The translations under genes and the position numbers were made by a program. Below, piece by piece: positions 18,614 through 22,007 of a stretch of 64,000 nt of DNA. Source of the DNA: Vreelandella jeotgali Hwa (GTDB taxonomy: Bacteria; Pseudomonadota; Gammaproteobacteria; Pseudomonadales; Halomonadaceae); NCBI RefSeq assembly GCF_000334215.1, contig NZ_AMQY01000023.1, positions 124,001 to 188,000 on the forward strand, given 5' to 3'. Numbering within the stretch: position 1 is the first letter of the stretch; every line of letters begins with the position of its first letter. The notes under the pieces are model-generated. The model did no database searches. It saw only the letters and a program-made list of their open reading frames with translations, and was not told the origin of the DNA.

Positions 18614-18648
18614 CTCCCGGCGCATAGCCCAGACTTCAAGAGGTGGTA

Positions 18649-19575
18649 ATGAAATCCCTGACAAACCGGCATATCGACTTCATGGGGCGGCGCCAATGGG
18701 CGCTGACCCTCTCGGGCATCATGCTGCTGGTGTCGATTGGTGCCATGATTATCCAGCAGCTCAACCTGGGGCTGGACTTTACCGGCGGCACTCTGGTGGA
18801 AGTTCGCTACGCCAACGCGCCGTCGCTGGATACCGTTCGCCAGGTGCTGGAGCAGAACGGCTTTCAGGACATCGCCGTGCAGACCTTCGGCGCCACGACC
18901 GACGTGCTCATCCGGCTGAAACAGGCCTTTGACGCCGAGGTCGGCCACAATATCGTCGCCCTGCTGCGAGACAGCGGTGCCAGCGTTGACCTGGTGCGCG
19001 CCGAATTCGTCGGCGCCCAGGTAGGCGATCAGCTGCGCGACCAGAGCGGCCTGGGCATGCTGGTAGCGCTGGGCGTGGTCATGCTCTACGTGGCATTTCG
19101 CTTTCAGTACAAGTTTGCCATCGGCGCGCTTTTGGCCCTGGTACACGATGTCATCATCGTTATCGGCCTCTTTGCGCTGTTCGGTCTCGAGTTTGATCTG
19201 ACGGTGCTGGCCGCGATTCTGGCGGTGATTGGCTACTCGCTTAACGATACCATCGTGGTTTACGACCGTATCCGCGAAACCATTCGTACCTCGCAGATCA
19301 CCGACATGGGCAAGATCATCAACGAGTCGATCAACGCCACGCTATCGCGTACCCTGGCCACGTCAAGCACTACCCTGCTGGTGCTGCTCGCCCTGCTGTT
19401 TCTGGGCGGCGACATGATCGAGAACTTTGCCATCGCCCTGCTCATCGGCATCGTGGTGGGCACCTTCTCCTCGATCTACATCTCCGGCGCGCTGCTGATT
19501 CCGCTCAAGCTGGGCCGCGAAGACCTGATTCCGCCGCAGAAACCCAGGGACGAAGAAGAGGAAGAGCTGCCATAA
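18649..19575 (+). CDS. secF: protein translocase subunit SecF
   Basis: 308 residues, partner of SecD. Six membrane helices with a periplasmic domain between the first and second (LGLDFTGGTLVEV); the last four carry VIGYSLNDTIVVYDRIRETI, the SecF equivalent of the SecD D-x-N helix. The ATG at 18649 is preferred (AAGAGGTGG just upstream) over a GTG two codons earlier. The C-terminus is acidic (DEEEEELP). The gene ends just before a perfect 18-bp triple repeat and a terminator split by an IS. Confidence 0.97.
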   Translation: MKSLTNRHIDFMGRRQWALTLSGIMLLVSIGAMIIQQLNLGLDFTGGTLVEVRYANAPSLDTVRQVLEQNGFQDIAVQTFGATTDVLIRLKQAFDAEVGHNIVALLRDSGASVDLVRAEFVGAQVGDQLRDQSGLGMLVALGVVMLYVAFRFQYKFAIGALLALVHDVIIVIGLFALFGLEFDLTVLAAILAVIGYSLNDTIVVYDRIRETIRTSQITDMGKIINESINATLSRTLATSSTTLLVLLALLFLGGDMIENFAIALLIGIVVGTFSSIYISGALLIPLKLGREDLIPPQKPRDEEEEELP

Positions 19576-19608: not shown

Positions 19609-19662
19609 AGCACCAAAAAGCAAAAGAGCACCAAAAAGCAAAAGAGCACCAAAAAGCAAAAG
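19609..19662. repeat. perfect 18-bp tandem repeat, 3 copies
   Basis: The unit agcaccaaaaagcaaaag occurs three times without a mismatch at 19609-19626, 19627-19644 and 19645-19662, between the secF stop and the left arm of its terminator. It is the only undiverged array in the window and so the most recent expansion. Confidence 0.95.
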
Positions 19663-19710
19663 CCCCTGCCGATATATAATGAACTGACCCCATAAAGTTG
19701 GACGGTTCAT

Positions 19711-20563
19711 TTAGCTGGCACCCAAGGCCTGAGTCCTGTACTGCACAGGGCTCAGGCCTTTTAGCGTCAACTTAATGCGTTCGTGATTATAGTAGTGGAT
19801 GTAGTGGTCGAGTCCTCGCTGCAGTTGCTCAAGCGTCTCGAAACCGATTCAGATAAAAGTACTCGGCCTTGAGGGTGCCAAAAAAGCTCTCCATCGCTGC
19901 ATTGTCCAGGCAGTTGCCTTTACGTGACATGCTTTGAATCAGGGATCGCTCCTTCAGCAAGCGCCGGTAAGCCGGGTGCTGATAATGCCAGCCTTGATCG
20001 GAGTGCAGCTGCGGCTTGTCCGCTGGCTCCAACCGAGTCAACGCCTTGTGCATCATATCGATCACCAGGGAGAGCACGGGGCGCTTGCCGGTCTGGTAGG
20101 CCACGATTTCGCCGTTATAGAGATCCATGACCGGCGATAGATAGAGCTTCTGGCCGTTGACGCTGAACTCCGTGATATCGGTGACCCACTTCTGGTTCGG
20201 ACGTTGTGCCTGGAACTGACGATCGAGCAGATTGGGCGCGATTCGTCCTGCGCTTCCTCGATAGGATCGGTATCGTTTTCGGCGTACCAGTGACCTCAGG
20301 CCCAGACTCTTCATCAGTCGCTGCACGGTCTTGTGGTTGACTGTCTCGCCCGCCTGTTTCAAGGCCGCGGTGATGCGACGGTAACCGTAACGCCCCGATG
20401 GTGGTCGTAGATTTGGCGTATACGCGTTTTCAGAGCCGCGTATTTGTCACCGGTGTTCTGGGCCTTGCGTTGATAGTAAAACGTGCTGCGCGAGAGACCG
20501 GCCGCTCGCAGCAGCAAGGCGAGGGTGTGCTCATGCCTTAATCCCTGGACGACTTGCGCTTTT
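19711..20563 (-). pseudogene. IS150-like transposase orfB (DDE, rve domain), frameshifted
   Basis: Conceptual translation in the -1 frame relative to orfA gives GLRHEHTLALLLRAAGLSRS and continues in several frames into an InsK-like transposase. Recognisable blocks are YRSYRGSAGRIAPNLL, WVTDITEFSVNGQKLYLSPV (first Asp), HSDQGWHYQHPAYRRLL (second Asp), SMSRKGNCLDNAAMESFFGT (Glu) and a C-terminal HYIHYYNHERIKLTLKG. Two frameshifts interrupt it: a missing base in the C-run at 20393-20396 (before the expected GRYGYRR) and an extra base in the A-run at 19841-19843 (after YLNRF). The longest intact piece is 19829-20362. All DDE residues survive but the protein cannot be made whole. Confidence 0.85.
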
Positions 20564-20593
20564 TGCCTCGCGCCACGTCCTGCTCTGCCTGGA

Positions 20594-21064
20594 TCAAGGC
20601 ATCGAGCTTTTTAGATAGGCGTTCTCGGCACGCAGGTAGGCGAGTTCTTTCAGCAACGCCTCTTGAGAGCGCTCTTTATCAGGTAGGGGCGGTGAAGGAG
20701 GCTTCTTTGACATCGGGCGGCGTCCTTTGCGCTGAGGTTCCAGGGCAGTCAGACCCCCACTATGGTACTGACGCTCCCATCTGCCAATAGCGCTGCGCTC
20801 ACGGATATCGAACAGGGCCGCAGCCTGGCGTTGTGACAAGCCATCCCGCCACATTCGCTCAAGCACCTCCCGCTTGAAGGCCGCACTGTGGTGACTGTAC
20901 TTCTTGCGCAGGCCCGACACGCCATGCTGTCGATAGGTTGCCAGCCATTGCCGGATGGTGGACACATCCACGCCATACTGGCGAGCCACTTCCCCCTGGC
21001 TGATGTCCTCGCGTAAACACTGCTGAATAACCCGCAGCTTGAAGCTCTCGTCATATTTCGCCAT
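20594..21064 (-). pseudogene. IS150-like orfA (HTH transposition protein), C-terminally frameshifted
   Basis: Starts at ATG 21064 (MAKYDESFKLRVIQQCLRE) and encodes two helix-turn-helix repeats typical of InsJ-like OrfA, then a leucine-zipper-like segment (LLKELAYLRAENAYLK). At 20608-20612 a run of five T's (plus strand) appears to lack one base: restoring it would continue LKKLDALIQAEQDVARGKK and stop at 20538. As it stands the frame ends in SSMP at 20594. The natural -1 ribosomal slippage site to orfB is probably the A5G tract at 20560-20564, now out of frame. Confidence 0.85.
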
Positions 21065-21132
21065 CAAAAACACCCCGAAGGTTGGATGATGTCCAACTTT
21101 CGGGGTGCAGTTCATAATCGACAGGGGCTTTT

Positions 21133-21214
21133 TAATGCGACGCTTATACGACCCGGCGGATTACAACTATTGGTCGGTTTACGTCTACCGGCGGATCAGG
21201 ACTACCGGCGGATT
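21133..21214. repeat. 17-bp tandem array, about 4-5 units, 3' of suhB
   Basis: On the minus strand, after the suhB stop, the units read taatccgccggtagtcc, tgatccgccggtagacg, taaaccgaccaatagttg and taatccgccgggtcgta, then a decayed fifth unit up to the terminator arm. Confidence 0.75.
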
Positions 21215-22007
21215 AAAAATGCGGCGTCAGCTGCTTGACCAGGGCCTTGTAAAGACGCGGACCGGCGGCCATCAGCACGCCTTCGGGCTTTAGCGCCGGC
21301 TGGCCGTCGGGGGTGCCCATCAGCGCGCCGGATTCCTTTAGCAGCAGCATCCCCGGGTACATGTCCGATTCGCTGAGTCCGGTCACAAAGGCGCTGTCCA
21401 CGCGGCCGGCGGCCACTTCGCAGATATCCAGCAGCCCGCTGCCGGTCGCTACCATGGCTTCGACGGTCGGTCCCAGCTGCTGGGTCAGCGTCATATAAGC
21501 GGGCAGATGGCGCTGGCGCAGCCAGGTGGGCGGCAGGCTCAGCGCGGTGCGGGTGCCGCCCAGCGCCGTGGCCTTGCTGACACGCATGCGCTTGTCGTTG
21601 TGCTGGGCACCGCCGCCGCGGGTGGCGAGGTACTCATCATCTGAAAACGGGCAGATAATCACCGCGTGTTCAGGCCTGCCTTTAACCCGGCACACAACCG
21701 AAATCGCGAAATTCACGCCGGCAACGGCAAGGCTGGAATCGCCGTGCATGGGTTCAATGTGCCAGACGGTATCCTGACCCTCGCCCTCGCCGGCGCGGTA
21801 CTGGGTAAAGCGGCCGACGATGCCGTGCTGCGGGTAGCCGCGCTCCAGCTGCTGAACGATAGTCGCTTCGGCCTTGCCGGCGGTATCGGTCAGCAGCTGC
21901 GTCAGGTTGGTGGCATCGTGAGCGTTTTCAATGCGCTCGCGGATACGGAGAAATTGATCAGCGGCCTTGCGCGTTGCGCGCAGCGTGAACTGAACCATCG
22001 GATTCAT
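21213..22007 (-). CDS. suhB: SuhB-type inositol monophosphatase family protein, catalytic residues replaced
   Basis: 264 residues aligned end to end with SuhB (MNPMVQFTLRATRKAADQ versus MHPMLNIAVRAARKAGN; YPQHGIV; RGGGAQHN; AAGRVDSAF). The metal/phosphate residues are lost: the TEESGE motif is replaced by GRFTQYR, and the DPLDGTT motif reads EPMHGDS (E85, H88). Only the late Asp (SESD for PWD) remains. Phosphatase activity is therefore unlikely. E. coli SuhB also acts non-enzymatically in the Nus-factor rRNA antitermination complex, a role that does not need catalysis, and its position (secF-suhB-trmJ) is the usual suhB locus. I infer a structural antitermination role; a true IMPase may exist elsewhere. 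Confidence 0.85.
   Translation of the reverse strand: MNPMVQFTLRATRKAADQFLRIRERIENAHDATNLTQLLTDTAGKAEATIVQQLERGYPQHGIVGRFTQYRAGEGEGQDTVWHIEPMHGDSSLAVAGVNFAISVVCRVKGRPEHAVIICPFSDDEYLATRGGGAQHNDKRMRVSKATALGGTRTALSLPPTWLRQRHLPAYMTLTQQLGPTVEAMVATGSGLLDICEVAAGRVDSAFVTGLSESDMYPGMLLLKESGALMGTPDGQPALKPEGVLMAAGPRLYKALVKQLTPHF

Follow-up and report, generated by a model that had tools for sequence, protein, structure and literature searches.

How does an insertion sequence come to lie in the loop of an intrinsic terminator, and what becomes of transcription at the terminator that it splits? These questions are raised by the secF–suhB interval of Vreelandella jeotgali Hwa, which lies within the window (i.e., the whole stretch of 64,000 nucleotides analysed here, positions 124,001 to 188,000 of contig NZ_AMQY01000023.1). 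The first-pass annotation described an IS3-family element in the terminator loop, and proposed that this element may target hairpins and that the secDF and suhB transcripts may run into each other once the terminator is split.

The left neighbour of the element is secF (18643–19575, plus strand; TIGR00966 above cut-off), and the right neighbour is a suhB-like inositol monophosphatase gene (21213–22007, minus strand; best NCBIfam match PRK10757, below cut-off). These profile matches bear out that the two genes converge from either side of the element. The bidirectional terminator between them is split into a left arm with an A-tract (19658–19673), recognised by hairpin score and fold, and a right arm with a T-tract (21118–21132), recognised by hairpin score, fold and its homologue L206. 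When the flanks were joined with one TAA, a hairpin was obtained with 16-position arms (19658–19673 versus A19679 plus 21118–21132), one C/A mismatch and a 5-nt loop; A and T tracts flank it on either side. The terminator of 15 bp with a 7-nt loop described earlier is the same hairpin with its innermost pair open, and the insertion into the loop is real. The rejoined hairpin scored 34, while a score of 28 was reached at only 0.05% of 76,781 flank positions. Folded as RNA it had −23.9 kcal/mol (z = −6.3), a value matched by none of 200 shuffles; each half of the split terminator folded alone was no better than shuffles.

An uninterrupted relative without the hairpin would have spoken against this interpretation. 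In congener G071, however, the secF–suhB interval holds the intact hairpin (L206), with a TGA loop and the same arms as in the window, except that the position mismatched in the window is paired. This uninterrupted site also rules out that the hairpin is part of the element. The arms of different copies are similar in style, as they would be if they belonged to the element and moved along with it, but the arms vary by locus and the duplications lie inside the loop, which leaves this explanation with practically no credibility. Of the 29 congeners examined, G071 included, seven have a stem scoring ≥22 no more than 220 nt away from the suhB match (L204, L206, L217, L218, L221, L223 and L226), and the other 22 have none. 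Hence, the secF/suhB terminator is no general feature of the genus. By eye, three tandem 18-bp A-rich units lie between secF and the terminator (window 19610–19663), and the last of these runs into the left terminator arm.

The element itself extends from 19680 to 21114 (1435 bp, with its transposase encoded by the minus strand), as delimited by its ends and duplication, its copies and family profiles. Its termini read TGAACTG...CAGTTCA, and it is flanked by TAA target duplications at 19677–19679 and 21115–21117, identified from the sequence and by end comparison; TG...CA inverted repeats and a target duplication of 3–4 bp are features of IS3 elements. Two genes were assigned, both on the minus strand: orfA (20594–21064; start chosen at the ATG 3' of a T-run), encoding a helix-turn-helix (HTH) protein, and orfB (19711–20590; 5' limit approximate), encoding an rve/DDE catalytic protein. 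In profile searches OrfA of the window matched PF13518 and PF01527. The window orfB is broken twice by a frameshift of one base, near 19841 and near 20392, while an intact orfB is present elsewhere in the genome. OrfB of relative L022 matched PF00665 and PF13333, as well as NF033516, the IS3 transposase model of NCBIfam, at 337 bits (cut-off 160), and the intact OrfB of L135 matched that of L022 at 77%. Named relatives of the element are mostly from Halomonadaceae.

The window genome (2.85 Mb, 26 contigs) contains six long copies of the element and three end remnants. The window copy is identical to L002; both lie in terminators and have the two orfB frameshifts in common. Copies L003–L005 are near-identical to the window copy, yet without its frameshifts. 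At L135 712–2022, which is the L003 copy, the frame of the host gene runs on into orfA and forms a single open frame of 436 codons; we take the host gene to be Hmp-like. The remnants L007 (86 bp), L008 (49 bp) and L009 (40 bp) all adjoin flanks that resemble half terminators. In L007 and L008 hardly anything is left beyond one end hairpin, while L009 is a tiny end fragment that lies, by eye, within an otherwise complete terminator stem. End hairpins kept by such remnants may act as terminators.

The copies compared came from Halomonadaceae, from some Burkholderiales, from relatives at the order level and from wider relatives on named plasmids, and their flanks were rejoined in silico. Because only 2–4 candidates were scored per genome in the many-genome searches, copy numbers are lower bounds. 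After removal of repeated flanks, 31 copies with both flanks remained, of which 23 had a duplication of 3–4 bp. We used a centred test, passed by sites where a stem scoring ≥20 has its centre no more than 4 nt from that of the duplication; score threshold and tolerance were fixed after the first flanks had been looked at. In the first set, 18 of the 23 duplicated copies passed. Addition of seven contig-end pairs from genome G161, eight plasmid copies and three copies from G444 gave 41 distinct duplicated insertions, mostly from Halomonadaceae but also from other Proteobacteria, in which multi-copy genomes count more than single-copy ones. In total, 33 of these 41 insertions lie in strong hairpins centred on the loop. 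Plasmid copies among those that pass include ones from Rhizobium beringeri, R. tropici, Sinorhizobium meliloti 1021 and Cupriavidus campinensis. The passing sites have loops of 3–7 nt and arms of 9–22 nt, and in 15 of them the offset is exactly 0. Duplication lengths in the 41 sites, which were picked for having one, were 3 bp (25 sites), 4 bp (15 sites) and 5 bp (one site).

Several sites need separate mention. The seven G161 pairs were matched via their duplication and hairpin, so that their scores (six of seven pass) are not independent of the pairing; without them, 27 of 34 insertions pass. Eight of the 31 two-flank copies were excluded for lack of a duplication (L004, L006, L027, L028, L052, L053, L056 and L097), and only two of these reach a score of 20. 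Of 16 plasmid loci, five were excluded because their ends could not be placed (L142, L144, L145, L146, L150), two because they have no duplication, though both lie in hairpins (L143, L151), and one as a repeat of the L012 site (L138). The order-level loci L118, L119, L120, L122, L123, L126, L127, L129 and L132 were excluded because of short flanks or ends that could not be placed. Distant relatives in G392 and G438 (L119, L120, L126, L127, L132) end beside a repeated palindrome with GGGGTCAG...CTGACCCC, which is possibly a REP-like target. The arms of the G161 sites resemble each other, while arms otherwise differ between sites. The G161 sites might also derive from a REP-like repeat that is abundant in this genome. 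One exact form of a palindrome common to several of these sites, which covers the idea only in part, had no exact uninterrupted copies in G161.

The frequency of hairpins at the insertion sites was compared with several controls. In the flanks of the same loci, only 0.93% of 76,781 positions passed the centred test (33/41 versus this null, binomial P = 8e-60). In the first 23 sites, 18 hairpins were found at the junction versus 0–1 at each of ten displaced centres. When left and right flanks were re-paired among the 41 sites, the mean number of hairpins was 3.4 and the maximum 8 in 300 rounds. The hairpins therefore reflect complementarity that is specific to each site rather than shared composition. 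A longer-loop test, with the duplication anywhere in a loop of 3–26 nt and a stem score ≥22, was passed by 19/23 and 10/11 copies, versus 0/12 duplicated copies of other IS elements (null, 1.95% of 4,100). Of the single ends, 38/57 resemble half terminators (null, 8% of 28,978), by a pattern written after the flanks had been seen and with three of the 57 (L121, L128, L133) also in the two-flank set.

The comparison with other IS elements bears on the simplest rival explanation, i.e., that insertion is random and that purifying selection spares only intergenic copies, where terminators are common. Terminator sites are indeed mostly intergenic, the element's end hairpins could make insertion there mild, and two copies in the window genome lie within coding sequence. 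Yet no hairpin site was found for any of 19 copies of four different IS elements from G007, G011 and G106 (0/19), which differs strongly from 33/41 (Fisher test, 1e-9). The ends of these control copies were shifted by up to 4 nt in search of a duplication, which was found and used for 12 of the 19, and the ends of both G106 copies are unsure. Moreover, selection gives no account of a duplication centred on the loop. The control elements and the loop centring rule out random insertion with selection, which we consider very improbable.

A second alternative is that the transposase recognises a double-stranded sequence motif (A-tract, C-rich arm, loop, G-rich arm, T-tract) without any hairpin. 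This would agree with 5' arms that are richer in C than in G at 31 of 36 sites and with the A and T tracts in the flanks. However, re-paired flanks keep this composition and nevertheless formed few hairpins, and the letters of the target site duplications are even across the 41 sites. Two insertions, L147 and L148 (Pandoraea and P. aeruginosa), lie near IS66-type genes in long palindromes of other sequence, without T-runs or other long tracts. Hence, these two sites suggest that palindromy alone may suffice as target. The palindromes may be the ends of other mobile elements. Because any terminator has complementary arms, these arguments do not fully dispose of motif reading, and we regard this alternative as unlikely rather than negligible.

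Most sites resemble terminators, so that the transposase might instead follow RNA polymerase or a factor paused there, with the hairpin being incidental. Insertions centre on the loop and not on the T-run, though, and the two palindromes without T-runs do not fit. The first flanks had raised the suspicion that the element prefers one orientation with respect to the stronger T-tract, but this was ruled out by 36 hairpin sites with or without duplication, of which 14 were in plus and 16 in minus orientation, with six equal. This random orientation implies that the target looks like the hairpin itself, although the orientation test is weakened because many terminators are bidirectional. Targeting linked to transcription is improbable on these grounds.

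We thus come to hairpin targeting, and consider it quite probable that this IS150-like group inserts into hairpin loops, mostly those of intrinsic terminators, and replaces the split terminator by its own end hairpins. Insertion would duplicate 3–4 bp (5 bp in one case) around the loop centre, and the transposase may read a symmetric or extruded hairpin instead of a fixed sequence. The element would be tolerated as it lands mostly outside genes. Its two end hairpins would take the place of the split terminator by halting transcripts that arrive from left or right, and would shield the transposase gene from outside transcripts. IS3-family elements form circles in which two inverted repeats abut, a few bp apart. 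The presumed circle junction of the element and its target hairpin would have a similar architecture. A more specific version, which we put forward only tentatively and which may well be wrong, holds that the DDE transposase reads DNA shape (an inverted repeat with a spacer of 3–7 nt), that the terminator mimics the circle junction, that the element substitutes its own terminators, and that E. coli IS150, which has inserted repeatedly at hok/sok stems, is a relaxed descendant.

The habit has exceptions. Four of the 41 sites are without convincing hairpin (L003, L005, L077 and L098), and two of these are in the window genome itself: L003 and L005 fall within coding sequence, and their stems are weak, with scores of 13 and 11. 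Four of the six long copies in this genome have a target duplication, and of these only two, the window copy and L002, lie in hairpins. Its own genome thus supports hairpin targeting by half only, and the weight of the argument comes from relatives. Other sites depart less far. L125, L140 and L152 lie in hairpins that resemble terminators, but miss the centred test because the duplication is off centre or the loop is longer; a miss of this type in a terminator-like hairpin is seen in copies from Burkholderia pyrrocinia and Paraburkholderia. The pair L099+L034, with a common duplication and imperfect pairing, misses it too. At L004, L027 and L052 the two flanks do not match, and some are half terminators by eye, as recombination between copies would produce. 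The earlier proposal that the IS targets hairpins hence stands for the group, given the 33 loop-centred sites, their absence at other elements and the G071 site, and fails for a minority of copies. Copies inserted without hairpin flanks, which had been named as contrary evidence, do exist in this minority (4/41). Overall, the targeting proposal is strongly supported by the sequences as right for the group, and the habit is broader than proposed, with exceptions.

We then considered the fate of transcription at the split terminator. Each end of the element has a hairpin with a T-run that faces inward. At the orfB side, the hairpin (19724–19762, plus strand; −31.6 kcal/mol, z = −5.1) has 16 pairs at 19724–19760, is followed by TTTT when read inward, and overlaps the last orfB codons. 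At the orfA side, a hairpin with T5 (21066–21107, minus strand; −26.5 kcal/mol, z = −5.1) lies directly upstream of the orfA start, with the inverted repeat as its 5' arm.

Both hairpins are conserved among relatives. In 27 aligned relatives, 94.7% of cells in the orfB-side hairpin were paired, with compensatory changes: 22 cells were changed on both sides yet paired, versus a shuffled mean of 6.3 (0/500 as high). One of its pairs occurs as C-G, G-C, A-U and U-A; by our codon reading, this pair joins the third base of a Gly codon to a base coding for Ala, Pro or Ser. Similarly, 91.4% of cells were paired in 23 aligned relatives at the orfA side, and 12 cells were changed on both sides yet paired (shuffled mean 4.4; 0/500 as high). 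Combinations paired only in the inward RNA (G-U) outnumbered those paired only in the opposite strand (A-C) by 46 to 4 at the orfB side, which points to RNA that enters this end from outside; the counts were 12 and 5 at the orfA side.

Other measures were less distinct. By a coarser count of covariation, four pairs (orfB side) and three pairs (orfA side) were changed on both sides, with 59 and 127 of 500 shuffles as high, and further pair types numbered 17 and 8, with 77 and 117 of 500 shuffles as high. With the orfB-side arm slid by +1, 15 doubly changed cells still remained, but only 58.8% of cells were paired. Related sequences can exceed shuffles without structure, and therefore the covariation of the end hairpins is support, not proof. 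The T-run at the orfB side has just four T and coincides with conserved codons. A simple terminator scan of the element gave one site, not above shuffles (average 1.4), and this site is a 5-pair version of the orfA-side hairpin.

We infer that both end hairpins are inward-facing terminators. A secF transcript would meet an end hairpin by 19762 and a suhB transcript by 21066, so that each would reach a terminator-like structure within ~90 bp of entry. The element thereby probably replaces functionally the terminator that it splits, as far as can be judged from sequence. Because a conserved hairpin with T-run faces inward at each end, the supposed collision of the secDF and suhB transcripts is unlikely.

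The nearest IS-named matches to the L022 OrfB, among the matches listed, were ISKpn8 and IS150, with 55–56% identity. A tree was made of 36 OrfB proteins of the 42 wanted, with a root for drawing only. In this tree IS150 and ISKpn8 fall inside a clade of 26 rows (fork 93/96, where long branches meet), surrounded by terminator-inserting elements. With 55% identity and an OrfB that groups with IS150, the element is IS150-like. IS150 had been considered as a clean outside control. This was dropped and IS150 was treated separately, because it nests in the tree and because 7/10 of the sampled IS150/ISKpn8 copies (5/8 distinct sites) are at hok/sok loci (L233, L234, L241–L244, L260). The ten copies were taken from spread matches and are not a random sample. 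A search for IS150 across the class gave no matches, a result that carries no weight by itself. Duplications of 3–4 bp were found in 8/10 copies; none of the ten passed the centred test (scores 5–8), and 1/7 passed the longer-loop test. According to the folds, the hok/sok copies lie near a sok-like stem that has a long loop, and the insertion point is close to the loop edge; at L233 a distance of 1.2 kb, which includes another IS, separates the copy from the annotated Hok gene. The element L235 from Pantoea groups with IS150 in the tree, and its stem is weak (score 13). These results for IS150/ISKpn8 and L235 show that the loop-centred habit is not common to every branch of the tree. For ISEnfa3, ISKpn38 and L238 no duplication was found. 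Like the window element, IS150/ISKpn8 have an orfB-side end hairpin, whereas they have no inverted-repeat hairpin before orfA. In a table published in PMC1525189, one of the two IS150 copies in E. coli CFT073 is REP-associated.

Several known systems resemble the element in part. Tn7 uses a safe site at the glmS terminator, one fixed site that is read through TnsD. The element is similar to Tn7 in its safe terminator site, but differs in that the Tn7 site is single and TnsD-read. IS1397 and ISKpn1, also of the IS3 family, insert into palindromic units or REPs, a specificity that the accessible text of PMC1525189 ascribes to the transposase. Insertion of an IS3-family element into palindromic DNA is a likeness by analogy; however, their targets are a host REP/PU family, whereas the arms at the present element differ between sites and are mostly terminator-like. 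Group IIC introns insert at intrinsic terminators, according to the accessible text of PMC4424553. In contrast to these retroelements, which insert after the terminator motif, the present element encodes IS3-type orfA/orfB with a DDE transposase and inserts in the loop, with a duplication, and is hence no group IIC intron. The accessible text of PMC3606827 concerns other Halomonas IS elements and has no further bearing on this one. In the literature searched, with ISfinder and most subscription journals outside its scope, we found no IS3 element described as targeting terminators. The present element is an IS3-family, IS150-like insertion sequence with a target habit that we have not found described.

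If this group does target hairpins, it would clearly exemplify structure-like target choice by a DDE insertion sequence, a choice that is specific and also portable, since intrinsic terminators are widespread. How a transposase finds hairpins in double-stranded DNA would become a directly testable question, and the element might serve as a tool for intergenic insertion. The findings also give grounds to re-examine the insertion sites of the model element IS150. For the host, they suggest that such elements stay nearly harmless by landing in terminators and bringing their own.
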